Part shown: positions 1-8,563 of the stretch, one piece after another
Position numbering within the stretch: position 1 is the stretch's first letter
How the letters are laid out: each line of letters starts with the position of its first letter
Assembly: GCA_012513595.1 (NCBI GenBank)
Contig: JAAZBY010000269.1
Location: 1-8,563, forward strand
Length of the DNA stretch: 8,563 nt
Reading direction: 5' to 3'
From: Chloroflexota bacterium
Lineage (GTDB): Bacteria > Chloroflexota > Anaerolineae > UBA1429
Program-made: the position numbers and the translations under genes
Notes under the pieces: model-generated
Told to the model about the DNA's origin: nothing
Database searches by the model: none
The model's input: the letters and a program-made list of their open reading frames with translations, nothing else

Positions 1-1495
1 AGTCAAAGTCCACCAGGCCGGCGGCGTTCAGGTGTCGGTCGTACCACTCCTTCAGGGCCAGCGCCTTGGTGAGGGTCTCGGCCGGCTTGTAGTAGACGCC
101 GCGGTTCTCCTTGTGGAAGCGCTGGCCGAGCAGCGGGATCAGCGAGTAGTCCAGCAGGGTGGTGTGCGTGCCGGGGTAGATGCAGTTGATCTGCCCGTTC
201 GGGTTGATCGGCACGCGCAGGAAGCACTCCAAGTACCACTGCAGATAGGACGGCTCACCAAAGCCCTTCCAGAGGCTCTGGGCGATGAACACGCCATCCC
301 CCCAGTACTGGGCCTGCTCACGCGTGGGGCAGTCGATGAGGTGTTCCTGCGCGCCGATGGCCAGCGTGTGCTGACATATCGCGACGATGCGCCCCAGGGC
401 CTCGTCGTCGGTGTGGTAGGGCTGCTTGACGGTCAGCGGGGCGCGCTTTTCCAGGCAGCCGACCTGATGCACGTGGACGCCGGAGGTCTTCCCGCGGATG
501 ACCATGTGCAGGTAGCGGAAGCCGCTCCAGGAAAAGGAGGCGAAGCGCTGCATCCCCTGGCGCGTCGTGTAGCGCACCGAGTAGCGGGTGCCCTTGCGGA
601 AGATCCAGGGGCGCCCCTCGCGCAACAGCTCAGCGCCCGAGATCTCCACCACCAGACCGGCGGGGGCCTCCAGCCCGATCATGTAGTGGCCGACCAGTTC
701 CTCGCCGAGGTCAAAGGTGACGGCGTTGGCGGAGGCCAGCGCGTGGTGGAGGGCCTCGAGAGAGAAGGGTTGCCAGTCTCCGGCGGGGAGGAGGGTCTCC
801 TCATCGCAGGTGGCCGAGACATCGGCCATGTCCTCTGCCCCGGGGCCCGGCGCCCGCCAGGCGCGCATGGCCACCGGCGCGACGTTGGCGCGCTCGAGCA
901 TGGGCGTCAGGCGGGGGGAATAGCCGCCCCAGATGCTCTCGGCATCGGGCACCGCTACGGCGTTGGGCCAGGCGGCCATGTCGCGGTCGGTGAAGCGCTT
1001 GCCCGGCCAGCCGTCTGGCTCCAGCCGCGCGTCATAGTCCTCGCAGTAGCCCAGCGCCCAGCCACGCGCCGCCACCGGCTGGCGCCACATGGGCAGGTCC
1101 AGGCACTTCCAGTTCTCATCGCTGACGACCTGGTAAGGGCCGTACTCGATGTGCACGAGCAGGCCGCCGCGAGAGGGGATGATGCAGGCGATGTTGGTGC
1201 CGCGGGCGTGGTGAACGAGGATGGCCAGGCTCACGCGGGCCTCCCCCTCGGGCCAGTCGACGAGCAGGTCGTCGTAGTGGCACCAGGCCGGGTCGCCGTG
1301 GATGGGCCCGCGGGCCACGTACCGGCCGTTCACGTACAGCACGTAGTGATGGCTGGCCGAGATGCGGATGCGGATCGGGCCGGGGGCCAGGGCGTCCGGC
1401 TCGCTGACGCGCAGCGTCTTGGTAAAGAGGACGTACTGGTTGTCGGTCTCCTCAGGAGACCAGATCCACTGGGGTTCAGCGGGCCTTCTCAGCAT
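1..1495 (-). CDS. GH78 family alpha-L-rhamnosidase, partial (C-terminus off the left edge)
   Basis: This glycoside hydrolase probably removes terminal alpha-L-rhamnose from glycosides by the inverting GH78 mechanism. The reading frame is open for 498 codons from ATG at 1495 to the window edge; family members usually run to 700-1000 residues, so the C-terminal part of the catalytic domain is missing here. Residues 1-130 look like the N-terminal beta-sandwich that carries Trp/Asn-rich sugar-contact loops. A further beta-rich section (about 235-345) ends in FSWSGFRYLHM. The six-hairpin catalytic domain starts near 355. The motif DCPTREQAQYWGD (388-400) has Asp388, Glu393 and Asp400 with the spacing of the rhamnose-contacting Asp567/Glu572/Asp579 of Bacillus sp. 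GL1 RhaB. The downstream catalytic Glu would lie outside the window. No signal peptide is visible, so the enzyme is probably intracellular. GGAG lies about 7 nt before ATG. The gene follows the epimerase gene after a 112-nt gap with a strong hairpin, so it may be read through or have its own promoter. The family call is firm; the exact glycoside substrate is not known. Confidence 0.82.
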   Translation of the reverse strand, partial: MLRRPAEPQWIWSPEETDNQYVLFTKTLRVSEPDALAPGPIRIRISASHHYVLYVNGRYVARGPIHGDPAWCHYDDLLVDWPEGEARVSLAILVHHARGTNIACIIPSRGGLLVHIEYGPYQVVSDENWKCLDLPMWRQPVAARGWALGYCEDYDARLEPDGWPGKRFTDRDMAAWPNAVAVPDAESIWGGYSPRLTPMLERANVAPVAMRAWRAPGPGAEDMADVSATCDEETLLPAGDWQPFSLEALHHALASANAVTFDLGEELVGHYMIGLEAPAGLVVEISGAELLREGRPWIFRKGTRYSVRYTTRQGMQRFASFSWSGFRYLHMVIRGKTSGVHVHQVGCLEKRAPLTVKQPYHTDDEALGRIVAICQHTLAIGAQEHLIDCPTREQAQYWGDGVFIAQSLWKGFGEPSYLQWYLECFLRVPINPNGQINCIYPGTHTTLLDYSLIPLLGQRFHKENRGVYYKPAETLTKALALKEWYDRHLNAAGLVDFD

Positions 1496-1538
1496 GCGCG
1501 GACTCCGATCATTAGGGGGCTGGGCTGGGTATCGCCTC

Positions 1539-1568
1539 ACTATAGGCGAGGCGGGGACTCCCCTGCAA
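1539..1568 (-). promoter_or_regulatory. Possible sigma70-type promoter for the GH78 gene
   Basis: On the minus strand TATAGT (1544-1539) differs from the -10 consensus at one base. TTGCAG (1568-1563) lies 18 bp upstream; only its TTG matches the -35 consensus. The start site would fall about 40 nt before the GH78 ATG. The site overlaps the 13-bp inverted repeat at 1547-1580. That overlap could mean regulated expression of the glycosidase apart from the upstream inositol genes, or it could be coincidence. Support is weak because the -35 is poor. Confidence 0.3.
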
Positions 1569-1580
1569 GTCCCCGCCTCG
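1547..1580 (-). terminator. Perfect 13-bp-stem hairpin between iolO and the GH78 gene
   Basis: The arms CGAGGCGGGGACT (1547-1559) and AGTCCCCGCCTCG (1568-1580) are perfectly complementary with an 8-nt loop. The hairpin lies about 28 nt after the iolO stop and before the GH78 start. No T-run follows it on the minus strand, so it is not a classic intrinsic terminator. It could be a U-less terminator, a transcript-stability or processing element that lowers downstream expression, or a protein-binding palindrome. The structure is seen directly; its role is inferred. Confidence 0.5.
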
Positions 1581-1607
1581 GCGGACGGTATGCGCTGGCG
1601 GGGGGCC

Positions 1608-2423
1608 TTACGGGGCTACCCCCAGGGTGCGCAGGTGCGCCATGGCGCGCTGGCCGGCCGTGTCGGCATCGGGCAGCGGCATGAACTCGCCCGAGACCCA
1701 GCCCTGATAGCCGGTGGCCTGCAGGGCCTTCAGGATGCTGGCAAAGTCCAGGTGGCCGGCGCCGGGGTGCCAGCGGTTCGAGTCGGCCACGTGAAAGTGC
1801 AGGATGTGCTTGCCACAGGCGGCGATGGAACCCTCGATCGACGGTTCCTCGATGTTCATGTGGAAGGTGTCCAAGAGCAGCCCCAAGTTGGGCGCGCCCA
1901 CCTCGTCGATCAGGGCCAGGCCCTCCTCGACGGTGTTGATGAGCGTGGTCTCGTAGCGGTTGAGGGGCTCCAGGGCCAGGCGGACGCCGGAGCGCCCCGC
2001 CGCCTCGCAGCACTCCTTCAGCGCGTCGACCATCCAGCGGCGCGCCTGCGCGGGGTCGATCCCCGGGCGTACCACGCCGCGGAGGAGGCCGATGATGACC
2101 AGGGCCTCCAGGCGCGATGCGACCGGCACGTGCGACACGGTGCGGTCAATGGCCGCCCGCCGCACGGTGGCGTCGGCGTCGACGTAAGACAGGCCCTCCT
2201 CTCCCAAGGCCTGGCCGGTTCCGATGGACGGCACGGTCATCCCGTGGGAGCGCACCAGGTCGTACAGTTCGCCGGCGTCCACCAGGGCGGGGTCGCGAAT
2301 GGCGAGCTCGACGCCGCGGTAGCCCCAGGAGGCGATCTTGCGCACGTTGTCGGCCAGGTTGCCCTTCAGGGCCACGGCCTGAAACTGCGCGGCGTGGGTC
2401 GACAGGACCAGACTGACCTTCAC
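1608..2423 (-). CDS. iolO: 5-keto-L-gluconate epimerase (IolO-like, TIM-barrel sugar isomerase/epimerase)
   Basis: This enzyme is expected to convert 5-keto-L-gluconate to D-tagaturonate in the cytoplasm, the last inositol-specific step of the Thermotoga-type pathway. The protein is 271 residues, about the length of TM0416. Blocks I recall from TM0416 recur in order: IRDP (42-45), IGTGQA (67-72), ALVIIGL (107-113), EPLNRYET (152-159) with INT (162-164), DTFHMNIEE (185-193), FHVADSNRW (210-218) and GH (223-224). The likely metal ligands are Glu152, Asp185, His211 and Glu246, typical of divalent-metal xylose-isomerase-like barrels. The start is GTG at 2423, because AGGAG lies 7 nt upstream. The first available ATG, 20 codons earlier at 2483, would place the coding region across the 13-bp hairpin and lacks a ribosome site. 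The gene lies 60 nt after iolN. A different keto-sugar or inosose isomerase of the same fold is the main alternative, but the block-by-block match makes it less likely. Confidence 0.85.
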   Translation of the reverse strand: MKVSLVLSTHAAQFQAVALKGNLADNVRKIASWGYRGVELAIRDPALVDAGELYDLVRSHGMTVPSIGTGQALGEEGLSYVDADATVRRAAIDRTVSHVPVASRLEALVIIGLLRGVVRPGIDPAQARRWMVDALKECCEAAGRSGVRLALEPLNRYETTLINTVEEGLALIDEVGAPNLGLLLDTFHMNIEEPSIEGSIAACGKHILHFHVADSNRWHPGAGHLDFASILKALQATGYQGWVSGEFMPLPDADTAGQRAMAHLRTLGVAP

Positions 2424-2430
2424 GGCCTCG

Positions 2431-2435
2431 CTCCT
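2431..2435 (-). promoter_or_regulatory. Ribosome binding site that fixes the GTG start of iolO
   Basis: AGGAG on the minus strand is separated by 7 nt from GTG at 2423. It lies only about 5 nt after the 13-bp hairpin at 2441-2472, so folding of that hairpin would sit right at the edge of the ribosome landing zone and could influence translation. Confidence 0.8.
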
Positions 2436-2440
2436 ATGGG

Positions 2441-2472
2441 CCGGGCGAGCCCCACGTGGGGGGCTCGCCCGG
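2441..2472 (-). terminator. Perfect 13-bp-stem intercistronic hairpin between iolN and iolO
   Basis: The arms CCGGGCGAGCCCC (2441-2453) and GGGGCTCGCCCGG (2460-2472) pair perfectly around a 6-nt loop. The hairpin occupies most of the 60-nt gap, starting about 11 nt after the iolN stop and ending just before the iolO ribosome site. No U-tract follows. Because iolO has no visible promoter of its own, full termination here would silence it. A processing or mRNA-stability role, or partial attenuation, is therefore more likely than a true terminator. Confidence 0.5.
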
Positions 2473-2483
2473 AGGTGGGACAC

Positions 2484-3608
2484 TTACGGTTCGTTCACCT
2501 GGCCGATGCGCGGCAGGGCGTAGACGGTCTTCCAGCCCTTGCTGAGCGGCTCGCGCAGGAAGGGCTCCATCTCCGCCTCGGTGCGCAGGGTCACCTCTTC
2601 CACGGGCGGCACGGTGCCGGCCGGGAAGGTCTTCAGGATGTCGTCCTGCACCATGGTGAGGTAGCGGAGGATGGCGGCCATGGGGCGCTTGGCCTTCTGA
2701 GCCGTGGCGCGGGTCGGCTTGCCGACGACGCCCTCGGGCGTGGCCGAGATCTCGATGGCAAAGTGGCCCTCCCCCTCTGACCAGCGGCTGGGCCGCCCGA
2801 AGGGGTCGACCGACTTGTCAAAGTGGCCGTCGGGCAGGTAGGCCTTGCCCTCGGTGTCGACCGCGGCGGCCATGTCCACCATCTCGGGGAAGAGGAGCAG
2901 GCCCAGGGCCGTCTCTGACTCGTCCGCATGGACAAAGTCCGTGTCCCAGCCGCCGCCGCGCTCGCGGGTGCGGAAGAACTCACGCACGGCGCGGTGCCAG
3001 TCGATCACCCGGAAGATGCCGGGCAGCTGGTAGCGCTTCTGGAACTCCTGGATGGCCGACTCAAGCACCCACAGCTGGCCGTGGTTGTTGATGATGATCT
3101 GCTTGCGAAAGCCGTCGTTCCAGAGGCCCAGCATCACGTCGATCATCATCTCCCGGACGACCGTCTCGCGGACGATCACGGTGCCCGGCATGCCCAGGTG
3201 ATGGTAGGGATGGGCGCCGTACATGAGCGGCGGCAGGGCCAGGTTCACGGGCGCCCCGCTCTTGGCCGTGTAGCGGCGCACGCCCTCGACGATGGCGCTG
3301 ACAAAGAGCGTGTCGGCGGCCGAGACGGTGTGCTGGCCGTGCAGCTCTGAGCAGCCCACAGGGATGAACACCACGTCGTTCTTGCGGCGGTTGGCCTCCA
3401 CCTGGTGGCGGATGGTCGTCTGGATGTAGGAGCCGGCCTTGGCCCACTCCACCGGGGAGGGGATGCCGTACTCTGCGAGGATGGCGTCGATCTGCGCGTC
3501 GCTGGCCTCCCAGATCTCCTTCTTCATACGGCCGACGGGGTTGTCTTCAAAGAACAGGTCGGGCTGGTCGGTTGGCAGCCAGCCTGTCGGGTTGGTTTTC
3601 TTTGGCAT
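2484..3608 (-). CDS. iolN: 3-dehydro-scyllo-inosose hydrolase (IolN-like, creatininase superfamily)
   Basis: This 374-residue metal hydrolase is expected to open the inositol ring by hydrolysing a C-C bond of 3-dehydro-scyllo-inosose, giving 5-keto-L-gluconate. Creatininase-family features are visible. PVGCSELHGQHTVSAADT (83-100) gives Glu88, His90 and Asp99, with the spacing of creatininase metal ligands Glu34/His36/Asp45. INNHGQ (173-178) gives His176, corresponding to His120. HADESET (227-233) matches the HAGxxET block. Creatininase has Glu two residues after the third-block His; here it is Gln178, so the second metal may be held by Glu232. The protein is about 100 residues longer than a typical creatininase, mostly as a roughly 70-residue N-terminal extension and extra C-terminal sequence. 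AGGAG lies 6 nt before the ATG. The gene lies between iolG and iolO with short gaps. By sequence alone it would be called creatininase; the inositol role comes from the neighbours and from TM0413. Confidence 0.8.
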   Translation of the reverse strand: MPKKTNPTGWLPTDQPDLFFEDNPVGRMKKEIWEASDAQIDAILAEYGIPSPVEWAKAGSYIQTTIRHQVEANRRKNDVVFIPVGCSELHGQHTVSAADTLFVSAIVEGVRRYTAKSGAPVNLALPPLMYGAHPYHHLGMPGTVIVRETVVREMMIDVMLGLWNDGFRKQIIINNHGQLWVLESAIQEFQKRYQLPGIFRVIDWHRAVREFFRTRERGGGWDTDFVHADESETALGLLLFPEMVDMAAAVDTEGKAYLPDGHFDKSVDPFGRPSRWSEGEGHFAIEISATPEGVVGKPTRATAQKAKRPMAAILRYLTMVQDDILKTFPAGTVPPVEEVTLRTEAEMEPFLREPLSKGWKTVYALPRIGQVNEP

Positions 3609-3653
3609 CTTGAACTCCTCTTGCTGGTTTACGATGACGCGGGCGCCGGGCGG

Positions 3654-4685
3654 TCAGCCCTGCCGCGCTGGATCGACCTCACGGAGCGCAACGGGGCGCT
3701 TCTCATCCAGCGAGCGCTTGGCGGCGTAGGCCATCACCACGGCCTCGCGGCCGTCCGGCCCGCCCACCGGCGGGGCGGTGTCTTCGGCAACCGCCTTGAG
3801 GAAAGCCTCCATCTCGCGGAGGTAGGCCTCGGTGTAGCGCTCGACAAAGAAGTACAGGAGCGGGGCGGCCTGGGTGCCCTCGGCGCCCAGCACGGCCGCC
3901 TCGTGCGCGGCGGGGTTGCCCACCACCACGGCGCCCTCGGAACAGAGCACCTCGACGCGCTGGTCATAGCCGTACACGGCGCGGCGGCTGTTGTCGATGG
4001 AGCCCAGCGCGCCCCCGGCAAAGCGGAGGGTGGCCAGGGCGGTGTCGATATCGCCGGCCGCCCCGATGGCCGGGTCGACGAGGACGGCGCCGGTCGCATA
4101 GATCTCCTGCGCGTCCTGGCCCACCAGGAAGCGGGCCATGTCAAAGTCGTGGATGGCCATGTCGAGGAAGAGCCCGCCCGAGACGCGCACATAGTCGATG
4201 GGCGGCGGGGCCGGGTCGCGGCTGGTGATGCGCACCAGGTGGGGCTCGCCGATCTTGCCGCTGGCGACCAGGTCGCGGGCGCGGGCAAAGCTTGGGTCGA
4301 AGCGCCGGTTAAAGCCGACCTGGAACTTGACGCCGCTGGCCGCCACCGCCTCGAGCACGTGGTCGATGCGCGCCAGGTCGAGGTCGATCGGCTTTTCGCA
4401 AAAGATGTGCTTGCCGGCCTGGGCCGCTGCCTCAATGAGGGGGGCGTGGGTGTCGGTGCTGGTGCAGATGACCACGGCGTCAACCGACGGATCGTCGATC
4501 ACCCGCCGCGGATCATCATAGACCCGCGCGACGCCCAGCTCGGCAGCCAGTTCCTGGGCCGCGGCGACACGGATGTCGGCGATGGCGGCCAGGGTGGCCC
4601 CCGGCAGCCGGGTGGCCAGGTGCCTGCCGTGCAGCCGGCCGATGCGGCCGGCGCCCAGCAGGCCCAGGCGGATCGTCTTGCTCAT
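3654..4685 (-). CDS. iolG: myo-Inositol 2-dehydrogenase (IolG-like, Gfo/Idh/MocA family)
   Basis: This cytoplasmic NAD-dependent enzyme is expected to oxidise myo-inositol to scyllo-inosose, the first step of the pathway. The 343-residue protein has the N-terminal Rossmann motif GLLGAGRIG (8-16), CEKP (96-99) with the catalytic Lys98, VGFNRRFDP (123-131), and DMAIHDFDMARF (175-186) in which Asp175 and His179 match the Asp172/His176 pair of Bacillus subtilis IolG. SRRAVYGYDQRVEV in the C-terminal half is also typical of IolG. The ATG at 4685 is chosen because AAGGAGG ends 6 nt upstream. A TTG two codons earlier would abut that site directly and is rejected. The gene is preceded by iolM after 44 nt and followed by iolN after 45 nt, consistent with one transcript. 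Activity on other inositol isomers or on glucose cannot be excluded from sequence. Confidence 0.85.
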   Translation of the reverse strand: MSKTIRLGLLGAGRIGRLHGRHLATRLPGATLAAIADIRVAAAQELAAELGVARVYDDPRRVIDDPSVDAVVICTSTDTHAPLIEAAAQAGKHIFCEKPIDLDLARIDHVLEAVAASGVKFQVGFNRRFDPSFARARDLVASGKIGEPHLVRITSRDPAPPPIDYVRVSGGLFLDMAIHDFDMARFLVGQDAQEIYATGAVLVDPAIGAAGDIDTALATLRFAGGALGSIDNSRRAVYGYDQRVEVLCSEGAVVVGNPAAHEAAVLGAEGTQAAPLLYFFVERYTEAYLREMEAFLKAVAEDTAPPVGGPDGREAVVMAYAAKRSLDEKRPVALREVDPARQG

Positions 4686-4691
4686 GGACAA

Positions 4692-4698
4692 CCTCCTT
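4692..4698 (-). promoter_or_regulatory. Ribosome binding site that fixes the iolG start
   Basis: AAGGAGG on the minus strand ends 6 nt before ATG at 4685. It leaves no spacer for the upstream in-frame TTG at 4691, so translation should begin with Met-Ser-Lys. Confidence 0.8.
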
Positions 4699-4729
4699 CG
4701 GTAGCGAGTCTGTGGACGCTAGCGCCGCC

Positions 4730-5887
4730 TCAGTTGGGCTTGACCAGGATCTTGCCGTCCTTGCGGTCGCCCGAGCGGGCGATGGCGTCCACGGCGTTGT
4801 CCAGAGCGTAGCGGGCCGTGATGATCGGGCTGAGGTCCAGCCGACCCGAGGCCACCAGGCGGATGACGTTGGGGAAGTTGGCATCGCCCGAGTGCCCCTG
4901 GGCGCCAAAGACCTGGGCCCGGCGCACCTGCAGCGTCTCGAGGTACATGGGCACCTCGCGGGCGGCACGGCCGATCTGGACGATCTTGGCGTTGATGGCC
5001 AGCGCCCTGAGCATCTGGGGCACGGTGATGTTGGGTACGCCGGCGGCCTCGACGAAAAAGTCAAAGCCCTCGCCCTTGCTGAGCTCCATGAGCACTTCGC
5101 TGGGGTTCACAGCCAACGGGTCGTAGACGTGGTCCGCGCCGATCTTCTCGGCCAGGGCGCGCCTCTGCGGAGACGTCTCGAACACGGCGACGATGCCCGC
5201 GCCGCCCGCCCGAGCCAGCCCGGCCGCGGCCAGGCCGATGGCGCCGGCGCCGTACACGCACACATACTGCCCGGGGAAGAAGCCACCCGCGCGCGGGAAC
5301 ATGGCGTTGTACGAGACGGTGGTCGGCTCGGTCAGCGCGCCCACTTCGTAGGCCCTGGCCTGGTCACCAAACCGCTCGGCGATGGCATCGATCTTCCAGC
5401 AGTACTTTTCGTCGACGGCGATGCGCTCGGCAAAGGCGCCCGGGATCGTAAAGCCGATCTCTTCCAGGTTGCTGCAGTGGTTGGGGAAGCCGTTGCGGCA
5501 GTTCACGCAATGGCCGCACCAGATCATCTCCTCGACGGTGACCATGTCGCCGGGGCGCAGGCTGGTCACCTCGGGGCCGATCTCCAGCACCTCGGCCGAG
5601 AACTCGTGCCCCAGGATGGTGGGGAAACGGGTCAGGCCGGGGTAGAGGATGTAGCCGTCTTTGTCCGTCTCATAAAAGTGCATGTCCGAGCCGCACACGC
5701 CGCAGGCCTTGATGCCGAGCAGGACGTCGCGCGGGCCGACCTTGGGCTCTTCCCACTCGCGCACCGACAGCTTGGGGTGCCGCCAGATGTTGTGCCCGCT
5801 GATGGCCGTACGGGTCTTGCGCTCCCAATCGCTGAGAGCATAGCCGGGCCTGGGGTCCCAGGCCGCGTCCAGTACGAGTCCCTTCAT
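4730..5887 (-). CDS. iolM: scyllo-Inosose 3-dehydrogenase (IolM-like, zinc-dependent medium-chain dehydrogenase)
   Basis: This enzyme is expected to oxidise scyllo-inosose at C3, giving the diketo-inositol used by IolN. The 385-residue protein is a medium-chain zinc alcohol dehydrogenase. Catalytic zinc residues lie in CGVCGSDMH (62-70; Cys65) and GHE (93-95; His94, Glu95). Four structural-zinc cysteines are Cys124, Cys127, Cys130 and Cys138. The Rossmann motif GAGAIG (213-218) is followed by acidic Glu237, which favours NAD over NADP. Blocks I recall from TM0412 recur: WDPRP (10-14), YILYPGLTRFP (79-89), EEMIWCGHC (119-127), GFPNHC (133-138), and near the C-terminus VRRAQVFGAQGHSG. The N-terminal stretch of about 45 residues before the usual fold start is shared with that protein. 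ATG at 5887 is used because GGAGG lies upstream and the homologous N-terminus starts there. The gene is first of the catabolic run, 82 nt after the regulator. Sorbitol- or threonine-type dehydrogenase activity is a weaker alternative. Confidence 0.85.
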   Translation of the reverse strand: MKGLVLDAAWDPRPGYALSDWERKTRTAISGHNIWRHPKLSVREWEEPKVGPRDVLLGIKACGVCGSDMHFYETDKDGYILYPGLTRFPTILGHEFSAEVLEIGPEVTSLRPGDMVTVEEMIWCGHCVNCRNGFPNHCSNLEEIGFTIPGAFAERIAVDEKYCWKIDAIAERFGDQARAYEVGALTEPTTVSYNAMFPRAGGFFPGQYVCVYGAGAIGLAAAGLARAGGAGIVAVFETSPQRRALAEKIGADHVYDPLAVNPSEVLMELSKGEGFDFFVEAAGVPNITVPQMLRALAINAKIVQIGRAAREVPMYLETLQVRRAQVFGAQGHSGDANFPNVIRLVASGRLDLSPIITARYALDNAVDAIARSGDRKDGKILVKPN

Positions 5888-5903
5888 GGTGTCCTTCCTC
5901 CTG

Positions 5904-5915
5904 TGCAGCGCTGCA
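5904..5915. promoter_or_regulatory. Perfect 12-bp CpG-centred palindrome upstream of iolM, possible operator
   Basis: TGCAGCGCTGCA is a perfect palindrome centred on CG, in the 82-nt gap between the regulator stop and the iolM start, directly upstream of the iolM ribosome site. LacI-family repressors bind such CpG-centred palindromes, and the AGCGCT core resembles the AnCGnT core of CcpA/GalR-type sites. Its half-site spacing differs by one base from the 14-bp palindrome at 7005-7018, so the same protein may not bind both. No convincing promoter was found in this gap. Confidence 0.4.
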
Positions 5916-5969
5916 TGATCTACGGTAATCGAGTCGCCGAGCGGGCCGGGTTGGCCGCGCGGTGGCCCG

Positions 5970-6992
5970 TCAGACCCCTGGGGGCGGCCCGGACGACTCG
6001 CGCACGACGAGGTGCCCGGGCATGACCACGTGGCTGTCAACCGGGCCGGGGGCGCCGCCGGCCAGAGCCAGGGCCATATCCATAGCGCACTCGCCCAGGG
6101 CGGTCGTGGGCTGAGAGATGGTGGTCAGCGTCGGGACGACATACGAGGCGTAGAGGACATCGTCAAACCCGACTACAGAGAGGTCCTGCGGCACACGCAA
6201 CCCCGCCAGGCGGGCGGCGCGCAGCAGGCCGATCGCCGTCATGTCGTTGTAGCAAAAGACGGCCGTGGGCCGCTGGGGCAGGGCAACCAGGGCGGCAAAG
6301 GCCGCCGCGCCTCCCTCGGCGCGGCCGTCCCCGGCCAGAACGAGGGCGGGATCCCAGGCCAGGCCGTGCGCCGCGAGGGCTTCGGCGTAGCCGGCCTGCC
6401 GCTCGACGCTGTCGCTATGCCCCGGCGCCGCGGCCACGAAGGCGATGCGCCGGTGCCCGAGGGCGAGGAGGTGCTCGGCTGCCAGACGCCCGCCGCCGCG
6501 ATTGTCGACCGTGACCGAGAAGGTGTAAGGGCCGGCATCGGCGCTGTGGTCGTTGATCAGGACCACGGGCACCTTCTGCTGTTCGAGGCGGTCCAGGTAG
6601 AGGGCACCCACGCGCGAGGAGGTGACAATGACGGCCTCGACGCGCTTGGCACGCAGCATCTCAACGGCGGCCACCTCACGCTCCGGCTCACCGCCGGAGG
6701 AGGCCAGGATGGCCGAGTAGCCGCTGGGAAGGGCGCGGTTCTCCACGCCGCGGACCACCTCGGCGACGAAAGGGTCGGCGATGGTGGTGACGACGATGCC
6801 GACGGTGCGGGTACGCCCGGTGACGAGGCTGCGGGCGATCGTATCGGGGGAATAGCCCATCTGGCGGGCCAGTTCCTGGATGCGAGTACGCGTAGCGGGA
6901 CGGATCAGGGTTGAGTTGCGGAGGGCGCGCGAGACAGTAGAGTGCGAGACTCCTGCTGCCCGTGCGATGTCCTTGATCGATACGCTGCCCAT
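5970..6992 (-). CDS. LacI-family transcriptional repressor, probable local regulator of inositol catabolism
   Basis: This 340-residue DNA-binding protein probably represses the locus until a sugar or inositol-derived ligand binds. The LacI helix-turn-helix is at about 5-24 (SIKDIARAAGVSHSTVSRAL). The hinge-helix region GYSPDTIARSL (46-56) supplies the minor-groove Leu56. A periplasmic-binding-protein-like ligand domain follows, starting at TVGIVVTTIADPF (63-75) and including VVGFDDVLYASYVVPTLTTI near the end. The length is normal for LacI/GalR regulators. ATG at 6992 follows AGAGGA at 7 nt and gives the canonical N-terminus; earlier in-frame codons run through the promoter and are not coding. 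The gene is driven by the promoter at 7027-7055 with a palindrome over the predicted start site, which suggests autorepression. It is followed on the same strand by iolM, so both may share a transcript. The ligand is unknown. The Thermotoga inositol regulator, as I recall, is of another family, so this would be a non-orthologous controller. Confidence 0.88.
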   Translation of the reverse strand: MGSVSIKDIARAAGVSHSTVSRALRNSTLIRPATRTRIQELARQMGYSPDTIARSLVTGRTRTVGIVVTTIADPFVAEVVRGVENRALPSGYSAILASSGGEPEREVAAVEMLRAKRVEAVIVTSSRVGALYLDRLEQQKVPVVLINDHSADAGPYTFSVTVDNRGGGRLAAEHLLALGHRRIAFVAAAPGHSDSVERQAGYAEALAAHGLAWDPALVLAGDGRAEGGAAAFAALVALPQRPTAVFCYNDMTAIGLLRAARLAGLRVPQDLSVVGFDDVLYASYVVPTLTTISQPTTALGECAMDMALALAGGAPGPVDSHVVMPGHLVVRESSGPPPGV

Positions 6993-7004
6993 GGCGTCAT
7001 CCTC

Positions 7005-7018
7005 TGCACACGTGTGCA
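7005..7018. promoter_or_regulatory. Perfect 14-bp palindrome, probable LacI-family operator
   Basis: TGCACACGTGTGCA is a perfect palindrome with the central CG that LacI-family hinge helices intercalate. It lies about +3 to +16 relative to the start site predicted from the leftward promoter, and its last base touches the regulator's ribosome site. This is a natural position for autorepression. Its centre is about 100 bp from the rightward promoter's -35 box. Confidence 0.7.
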
Positions 7019-7026
7019 CCGTCCGC

Positions 7027-7055
7027 AGTATAGCAGGTCGCGCCGGCAGAGTCAA
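7027..7055 (-). promoter_or_regulatory. Sigma70-type promoter of the regulator (and probably the iol operon)
   Basis: On the minus strand TTGACT (7055-7050) and TATACT (7032-7027) are separated by exactly 17 bp; each differs from consensus at one base. The predicted start is near 7020, giving a leader of about 28 nt to the regulator ATG. A 7-bp inverted repeat, GCAGGTC (7033-7039) and GACCTGC (7056-7062), frames the spacer and -35. Confidence 0.75.
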
Positions 7056-7072
7056 GACCTGCCACACCGTGA

Positions 7073-7086
7073 TAGCGGGCCCGCTA
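7073..7086. promoter_or_regulatory. Perfect 14-bp palindrome between the divergent promoters
   Basis: TAGCGGGCCCGCTA is a perfect palindrome. It lies 17 bp upstream of the leftward -35 box and 23 bp upstream of the rightward -35 box. This is a typical place for an activator or a shared operator. Its sequence is unlike the palindrome at 7005-7018, so a second regulator is possible. No function is proven. Confidence 0.4.
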
Positions 7087-7109
7087 GGCTCGGCTGCGGC
7101 GGCGGAGGC

Positions 7110-7137
7110 TTGGCAGCCATCCTGAAAGCGGTACAAT
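7110..7137 (+). promoter_or_regulatory. Sigma70-type promoter for the rightward oxidoreductase-GH4 genes
   Basis: TTGGCA (7110-7115) and TACAAT (7132-7137) are separated by 16 bp and each differs from consensus at one base. The predicted start is near 7144, about 30 nt before the ATG at 7176, leaving a short leader that contains the ribosome site. Confidence 0.65.
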
Positions 7138-7175
7138 GCCCGTCGGCGCAACCCGCGAGAGAGGAGTCAGTGGCC

Positions 7176-8204
7176 ATGGCAGACAAGACGCGTGCCGTCC
7201 TGGTGGGCTGTGGGGGGATCACCCGCACCTGGATGCGGGCCGTCTCGGAGATGGACGACGTGGAGATGGTCGGCTTTGTCGACCTCGTCGAGCAGGCCGC
7301 CCGCGCACGGGCCGAGGAGTACGGTTTCGGCGGCGCCGCCATCGGCACCGACCTGGCGGCCATCTTGGCCCGCACCCAGCCCGACGTGGTGTTCAACTGC
7401 ACCGTCCCCGAGGCGCACTATGGCGTGACGCTGGCGGCGCTCGAACATGGCTGCCATGTGCTGACGGAAAAGCCCCTGGCCGACTCGATGGCGCAGGCCC
7501 GGGAGATGGTGGCGGCGGCCGACCGAGCCGGGCGCATCCTGGCCGTGATCCAGAACCGACGCTATGACGCGCGCATTCGCCGGCTGGCGCACCTGGTGGC
7601 CAGCGGACGGTTGGGCCCGCTGACGACGCTGAACTGCGACTTTTACATCGGGGCCCACTTTGGCGGCTTTCGTGACCGGATGGAGCACGTCCTGCTCCTC
7701 GATATGGCCATCCACACCTTCGACCAGGCCCGGCTGATCAGCGGCACCGACCCCGTCTCGGTCTACTGCCGGGAATGGAACCCGCAGGGTTCCTGGTACG
7801 ACCACGACGCCTCGGCGGTGGCCGTTTTCGAGATGACCAACGGCGTGGTGTACACCTATCGGGGCTCGTGGTGCTCTGAGGGCCTCAATACCACCTGGGA
7901 ATGCGACTGGCGCGCCATCGGCGTGCAGGGCAGCGCTTTCTGGGATGGCGCCGATACCTACCGTGCCGAGGCGGTCCGCGAGGCGGGCGGGTTCCGCTCG
8001 ACGCTGGAGGAGGTGGAGGTGCCCGCCGTGGAGGCTGGCGGGAAGGTCGGTGGGCACGCCGGCTGCATCGCCGAGTTCATCCACTGCGTGCGCCATGGCG
8101 GGGCGCCGGAGACGGCCGCCGCCGACAATATCAAGAGCCTGGCCATGGTCTTTGGTGCCATTGAGAGCGCCCGGACGGGCCGTACCGAGCAGGTGGTCTG
8201 GTGA
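7176..8204 (+). CDS. Gfo/Idh/MocA-family NAD(P)-dependent oxidoreductase, substrate unknown
   Basis: This 342-residue protein is a cytoplasmic sugar or cyclitol oxidoreductase of the glucose-fructose oxidoreductase/inositol dehydrogenase superfamily. It has a Rossmann motif VGCGGIT (10-16), a conserved EKP (98-100) with the catalytic Lys99, and LLLDMAIHTFDQAR (173-186) in which Asp176 and His180 form the usual pair. It lacks the SRRAVYGYDQR block of IolG and its substrate half is rich in Trp, Tyr and Cys (about 198-260), so it is not a simple duplicate of iolG. ATG at 7176 is preferred because AGGAG (7162-7166) lies 9 nt upstream; an in-frame GTG at 7170 would leave only 3 nt. The gene precedes the GH4 gene by 53 nt and both likely share the promoter at 7110-7137. 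It may act on another inositol isomer or on a sugar freed by the glycosidase; neither is shown by sequence. Confidence 0.85.
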   Translation: MADKTRAVLVGCGGITRTWMRAVSEMDDVEMVGFVDLVEQAARARAEEYGFGGAAIGTDLAAILARTQPDVVFNCTVPEAHYGVTLAALEHGCHVLTEKPLADSMAQAREMVAAADRAGRILAVIQNRRYDARIRRLAHLVASGRLGPLTTLNCDFYIGAHFGGFRDRMEHVLLLDMAIHTFDQARLISGTDPVSVYCREWNPQGSWYDHDASAVAVFEMTNGVVYTYRGSWCSEGLNTTWECDWRAIGVQGSAFWDGADTYRAEAVREAGGFRSTLEEVEVPAVEAGGKVGGHAGCIAEFIHCVRHGGAPETAAADNIKSLAMVFGAIESARTGRTEQVVW

Positions 8205-8257
8205 TACAGGGGCGGCGCCTGCGCGACGCCCGCCGATGAGCGAAAGGGGAGTGGGGA

Positions 8258-8563
8258 ATGGCCAAGATCGTTTTCCTCGGGGCGGGGAGTACCGTCTTTG
8301 CACGCAGCGTCCTGGGGGACTGCCTGCACGTGCCCAGCCTGCGCGATGCACAGGTCAACCTGGTGGACATCGACCCGGATCGCCTGCACGTCTCTGAGGT
8401 GATGCTCAAGAACATCAACCGCACTCTGGGGACCGAGGCCACCGTGCAGTCCTTCCTGGCGGAGGAGGCCAGCGAGGCGCTCCGCGGGGCCGACTATGTG
8501 GTGAACGCTATCCAGGTCGGCGGATACGAGCCGTCCACGGTGATAGACTTTGAGATCCCGAAA
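8258..8563 (+). CDS. GH4 family NAD- and metal-dependent glycosidase (alpha-galactosidase/alpha-glucosidase type), partial
   Basis: Only the first 102 codons are inside the window; GH4 enzymes usually have 430-480 residues. The N-terminal Rossmann motif KIVFLGAGSTVFARSVLGD (3-21), the acidic LVDIDPDRL (35-43), ADYVVNAIQVGGYEP (78-92) and TVIDFEIPK (94-102) are typical of GH4, which cleaves glycosides by transient NAD-dependent oxidation at C3 with a divalent metal. The start motif is closer in memory to MelA-type alpha-galactosidases than to 6-phospho-glycosidases, but the deciding residues lie beyond the edge. The ATG follows a GGGGAG site at 6 nt. Acting with the preceding oxidoreductase, it probably hydrolyses an imported alpha-glycoside in the cytoplasm. 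Family confidence is high; substrate confidence is low. Confidence 0.85.
   Translation, partial: MAKIVFLGAGSTVFARSVLGDCLHVPSLRDAQVNLVDIDPDRLHVSEVMLKNINRTLGTEATVQSFLAEEASEALRGADYVVNAIQVGGYEPSTVIDFEIPK

Follow-up and report, generated by a model that had tools for sequence, protein, structure and literature searches.

The inositol pathway of Thermotoga maritima, comprising IolG, IolM, IolN and IolO (TM0412-TM0416), was reportedly first described by Rodionova et al. in 2013. Here we analyse a stretch of 8,563 nucleotides (contig JAAZBY010000269.1, positions 1 to 8,563; hereafter the window), which carries relatives of all four enzymes next to a gene for a LacI-family regulator. We think it very likely that the locus as a whole is an operon for inositol use of the Thermotoga type, lacI-iolM-iolG-iolN-iolO, under LacI control. 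We infer the functions of the four iol genes, all of the reactions, the repression and the inducer from sequence. The regulator of the T. maritima inositol operon belongs to the ROK family (PMC3750489), and LacI-family inositol regulators named IolR are known in seven orthologous groups (PMC4052901). The T. maritima LarA homologue GntE2 converts D-mannonate to D-gluconate, a reaction that its authors regard as a way of feeding the pentose phosphate pathway (PMC7583248). An L-glucose pathway of Luteolibacter LG18 (PMC12632266) includes a relative of IolO (35% to IolO) that makes D-tagaturonate from 5-keto-L-gluconate. Unlike the pathway proposed here, it derives 5-keto-L-gluconate from L-gluconate rather than inositol, so the presence of IolO alone is no proof of an inositol pathway.

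Like the T. maritima pathway, the window contains all four enzyme families, as identified by equivalog models, with solved relatives for IolO, IolG and IolM. It differs in its LacI-type regulator, where T. maritima has one of the ROK type (PMC3750489), in an IolM from a different clade (44% to 3ip1, compared with 62% for other loci), in an IolN of a long subfamily, and in having no transporter within the window. With the IolR groups (PMC4052901), the window regulator shares its family and its predicted pathway. The operon and its control region are laid out as follows.

1608..2423, minus strand: iolO, predicted 5-keto-L-gluconate 4-epimerase (NF041099, 333.5 bits, cut-off 300; 43% to 2zvr/TM_0416)
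2484..3608, minus strand: iolN, predicted 3-dehydro-scyllo-inosose hydrolase, long form of 374 amino acids, with an N-terminal part that is missing from the short form
3654..4685, minus strand: iolG, predicted myo-inositol 2-dehydrogenase (TIGR04380, 460 bits, cut-off 355; 51% to 3ezy)
4730..5887, minus strand: iolM, predicted scyllo-inosose 3-dehydrogenase (NF041097, 526.9 bits, cut-off 450; 44% to 3ip1)
5970..6992, minus strand: LacI-family regulator gene, first of the predicted operon, ATG at 6992 (PF00356, 59.1 bits; PF13377, 145.3 bits)
7005..7018, no strand: predicted operator TGCACACGTGTGCA, a perfect palindrome and by far the most frequent such palindrome of related loci, placed between the promoter-like site and lacI
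7027..7055, minus strand: sigma-70-like promoter TTGACT-17-TATACT with TG ahead of the second hexamer (promoter scan)

IolM, IolG, IolN and IolO all exceed the NCBIfam equivalog cut-offs of the Thermotoga-type pathway, IolN with 319.6 bits against a cut-off of 245. This bears out the identity and order of the four genes on the minus strand (1608-5887) that an earlier note on this DNA had proposed, and their tight spacing on one strand is also as described there, with intergenic gaps of 44, 45 and 60 bases along iolM-iolG-iolN-iolO. By sequence, the best solved relatives are 2zvr (named TM_0416) for IolO, and 3ezy and 3ip1, which we take to be T. maritima proteins, for IolG and IolM; that of IolN is 3lub, a putative creatinine amidohydrolase. 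The IolM model gives 3ip1 (letters 4-382) a score of 536.1, and the IolO model gives 2zvr one of 436.5. IolN has a creatininase fold, and E88, H90, D99, H176, H227 and E230, in its catalytic or metal-site stretches, do not vary across an alignment of 32 long and short forms. Five of 14 control genomes, T. maritima among them, matched the IolN model, and one of these matches, not assigned to a particular genome, was above the cut-off. The earlier note had also stated that no gene of the Bacillus iolBCDEJ route is present; Pfam and NCBIfam scans agree for iolB, iolC, iolD and iolE among the window genes, with iolJ not searched by name, and IolO scores 35.2 bits on the IolE model (cut-off 290). 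Its expectation that pipelines would give three of the four genes only generic names, and so hide the pathway, holds at best in part, as NCBIfam has named models for all four. Among the 120 IolN relatives listed, 38 carried a source name: creatininase in 32 and "3-dehydro-scyllo-inosose hydrolase" in six. Near-identical IolN proteins also occur on longer contigs, of up to 605,243 bases.

In the proposed pathway, IolG would oxidise myo-inositol to scyllo-inosose, which IolM would oxidise to a diketone. IolN, a putative metal-dependent hydrolase of the creatininase type, would open the ring of the diketone to give 5-keto-L-gluconate, and IolO would epimerise this to D-tagaturonate. In bacteria sharing the set, UxaE would most likely convert D-tagaturonate to D-fructuronate and a UxuB-type reductase would yield D-mannonate, often followed by a predicted nickel-type LarA-like epimerase, from D-mannonate to D-gluconate, and 6-phosphogluconate dehydrogenase. 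Genes for these later steps cluster with the iol genes in related loci, which came from a single IolN scan of species-representative genomes (155 relatives, 80 loci kept). When neighbour clusters of 85 sequences were identified by scanning one representative per cluster, tagaturonate epimerase UxaE was a neighbour in 23 sequences, a D-mannonate oxidoreductase-like protein (UxuB) in 20, a LarA-type protein in 19, 6-phosphogluconate dehydrogenase (Gnd) in 15 and a ribose-type ABC permease in six. These neighbours strengthen the earlier reading of a route from inositol to tagaturonate. Transporter and tagaturonate genes, which the earlier note had suggested looking for, are absent from the window itself (positions 1-8563). 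The extended route is already known in outline because T. maritima GntE2 carries out the D-mannonate conversion (PMC7583248). The related loci share with that route a LarA homologue, predicted to take D-mannonate to D-gluconate, but their LarA-like gene stands beside iol genes or behind TGCACACGTGTGCA, and its representative falls below the family cut-off.

The palindrome TGCACACGTGTGCA is conserved across related loci. The window copy is 8 bases downstream of the TATACT box and 12 bases upstream of the lacI ATG, and the LacI protein would probably repress through it, directly downstream of the -10 box of the lacI promoter. The regulator has the helix-turn-helix and sugar-binding domains of the LacI family and a conserved predicted operator at pathway genes, and LacI relatives with 31-64% identity occur in 28 related loci. 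Among CG-centred near-perfect palindromes in intergenic DNA of the related loci, TGCACACGTGTGCA ranked first by far with 27 copies, followed by a pair of one-base variants with 8 and 7 copies, while the commonest unrelated palindrome had 2. Counts with mismatches and with permuted palindromes covered 82 sequences (80 loci, L081 and the window; the duplicates L082-L084, of L001, L014 and L056, were excluded). With up to two mismatches, there were 57 sites in 45 of the 82 sequences, compared with 3 to 8 in five shuffles. Intergenic DNA held 27 exact copies and 45 with at most one mismatch, while 60 permuted palindromes gave no exact copy and at most one copy each with one mismatch. The site is also tied to the helix of the regulator: all 22 LacI proteins with a visible SH[STP]TVSRAL helix (one visible in part) were encoded in loci with the site, compared with none of four acidobacterial LacI proteins with a SKSLVSM helix, and three LacI proteins whose helix is cut off were also in siteless loci. 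We predict that TGCACACGTGTGCA is the operator, apparently an undescribed one; a mention of it in an inositol setting was not found in the open literature, which is weak evidence, as subscription papers lay outside the search. A 12-bp palindrome, TGCAGCGCTGCA, lies within 5903-5916, just ahead of the iolM ribosome site, with half-sites like those of the operator at another spacing.

The association between palindrome and pathway extended to whole genomes. Across 396 genomes of one class (that of G006, the genome of locus L012, an Anaerolineae bacterium), exact TGCACACGTGTGCA occurred in 70 and a reversed control in 2. IolN exceeded its cut-off in 101 of these genomes, and the exact site was present in 51 of the 101, compared with 19 of the 295 without IolN (Fisher, 9e-21). 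With 15 known motif-source genomes removed, the difference was 39 of 86 versus 19 of 295 (9e-16). We sorted the IolN genomes by hand into those with long (74) and short (34) forms, seven having both. The exact site occurred in none of five genomes whose only IolN was a short form linked to an oxidoreductase, but in five of eight with an inositol-linked short form. Twelve further site regions comprised five with transport genes adjoining the site, two LacI-UxaE operons, one with a kinase, one with a distant LacI and three with no gene recognised. Another 20 site regions, located in 15 genomes that lack an IolN above the cut-off, contained a LacI relative in 11, Gnd, UxuB-LarA or UxaE-UxuB in five, a ribose-type transporter in three (one with LacI and IolM) and nothing clear in three. 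Since the site often lies near uptake genes and near those for the steps of tagaturonate, mannonate and gluconate metabolism, a regulon can be outlined. We give about even weight to the proposal that this is an undescribed Chloroflexota inositol regulon, in which a LacI repressor and TGCACACGTGTGCA join iolMGNO with ribose-type or other ABC uptake, UxaE, UxuB, a LarA-type nickel epimerase and Gnd, so that inositol would feed the pentose phosphate pathway by way of D-tagaturonate, D-fructuronate, D-mannonate and D-gluconate, without any Bacillus step.

Several observations weigh against the inositol operon and its regulon. T. maritima did not grow on inositol (PMC3750489). The representative of the LarA-like proteins scores 192.8 on the hexonate epimerase model (cut-off 500), and the IolN-model protein of L085, which is linked to an aldehyde:ferredoxin oxidoreductase, scores 493.7 bits, above the 319.6 of the window IolN. 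The exact site is missing in half of the IolN genomes, and six site regions have no recognised gene (L131, L137 and L142 among the 12; L154, a weak case, L160 and L161 among the 20). Additionally, the loci that yielded the motif also served for the first count of its enrichment; only the 396-genome comparison is partly independent, and further motif-source genomes may remain among the 396.

The remaining features of the window lie on either side of the operon.

7110..7137, plus strand: divergent sigma-70-like promoter TTGGCA-16-TACAAT (promoter scan)
7176..8204, plus strand: divergent Gfo/Idh/MocA-type dehydrogenase gene (PF01408, 77.9 bits; under all NCBIfam cut-offs)
8258..8563, plus strand: glycoside hydrolase family 4 gene, 5' part only, at the window edge (PF02056, 84.2 bits, cut-off 23.2)
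1545..1607, minus strand: strong hairpin 3' of iolO, a possible transcript end (-35.2 kcal/mol, z -2.86)
2..1540, minus strand: partial gene with weak likeness to alpha-L-rhamnosidase (PF05592, 20.9 bits, below the cut-off of 22.2)

The partial gene at 2..1540 is probably outside the inositol pathway. The hairpin has 14 pairs and was equalled by two of 200 shuffles; it lacks a T-run and is absent from terminator predictions. Window GC content is 0.687, and some plus-strand open frames (for example 3405-4811) were dropped as shadow frames. The window has two sigma-70-like sites, both inside 6993-7175, compared with an average of 0.5 in shuffles.

The second Gfo/Idh gene and the family 4 glycoside hydrolase (7176-8563) stand opposite the operon across the operator region, and both could be part of this regulon, serving for example a galactosyl-inositol. 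Their facing the operon across a shared operator region is one reason to consider that the same chemistry serves another natural substrate, such as scyllo-inositol, D-chiro-inositol, an inosamine, a galactosyl-inositol or another cyclitol or derivative, which we regard as unlikely but as the strongest of the alternatives. Several related loci contain additional Gfo/Idh genes with 34-43% identity to IolG, and five encode a substrate-binding protein that scores 366.8 bits on the rhizopine-binding family, below its cut-off of 420. Rhizopine is an inosamine. However, the window IolG scores 460 on the myo-inositol 2-dehydrogenase model (cut-off 355) and only 141 on the D-chiro-inositol model (cut-off 540), and the family 4 fragment, whose best NCBIfam match was alpha-galactosidase (116.7 bits, cut-off 486), had no match among the 80 related loci.

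Differences within the IolN family suggest a second alternative, that the long IolN catalyses a different reaction and the operon does not encode the Thermotoga pathway; we consider this quite improbable. The window IolN starts about 45 residues earlier than short forms, and the two forms are just 37-44% identical (about 40%). A sister group of short forms clearly has a different setting: eight of the 20 short-form regions adjoin an aldehyde:ferredoxin oxidoreductase together with a cupin or a third cluster protein, without inositol genes. The other short-form regions contain IolM (62-64% identity) and UxaE in six, IolO in two and only a distant dehydrogenase in four, so that short forms stand next to IolM, UxaE and IolO just as long forms do. 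The long form also pairs with both clades of IolM, one of 38 members near the window type (median 44% to 3ip1) and one of 26 near 3ip1 (median 63%), and both clades pass the IolM model where tried. Since the IolN model also matches the oxidoreductase-linked proteins, the model alone is no proof of function, and its span across proteins of another context calls for caution; for the window gene, neighbourhood supports the inositol assignment. The oxidoreductase-linked loci (L085, L095-L097, L100 and L104-L107) pair an IolN-model protein with an aldehyde:ferredoxin oxidoreductase and a protein lacking any Pfam or NCBIfam match, and mostly have a cupin as well; this cluster is probably a different pathway that NCBIfam labels as inositol. 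In loci with the Thermotoga-like IolM clade (L007, L009, L020 and similar), the glycolate-oxidase-like genes GlcD and GlcF often directly precede iolN.

The earlier note had left a choice between transfer and a wider distribution of the pathway, and the IolN tree favours the latter. The tree covers the window and 79 of the 80 loci (L079 is missing, as its IolN was not called) and has no Thermotogota rows. Its loci comprise 61 from Chloroflexota, 10 from Acidobacteriota, three from Armatimonadota, one each from Myxococcota, Actinomycetota and Ignavibacteriota, and two of no group. The window IolN falls among Chloroflexota and pairs with a Chloroflexota locus, although this closest fork has little support (81/77). 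The regulator and predicted operator of the window match the type found in Chloroflexota loci. Since the window is probably itself from Chloroflexota, transfer from Thermotoga is needless, and although the pathway was reportedly first described in T. maritima, in work cited by PMC3750489 and PMC12632266, a recent transfer of the four genes from Thermotogota is very improbable given identities of only 43-51% to T. maritima structures, many closer relatives in Chloroflexota and a regulator of another family than the ROK protein of T. maritima (PMC3750489). Ancient transfer between phyla is possible. The IolN of L057, titled Acidobacteria, is nested within Chloroflexota, as a misplaced contig or a transfer.

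The four-gene set is common, and less unusual than the earlier note supposed. While the pathway itself is known, its spread and its regulatory switch seem little described, and the regulon is the part of interest to specialists. The palindrome provides a cheap genome-wide marker of co-controlled genes that helps to name transporters and downstream steps. Soils and sediments are rich in inositol and inositol phosphates. Should the set function as predicted, the Thermotoga-type route would be used by many uncultured Chloroflexota and by some Acidobacteriota and Armatimonadota, and would be a widespread alternative rather than a speciality of Thermotoga.

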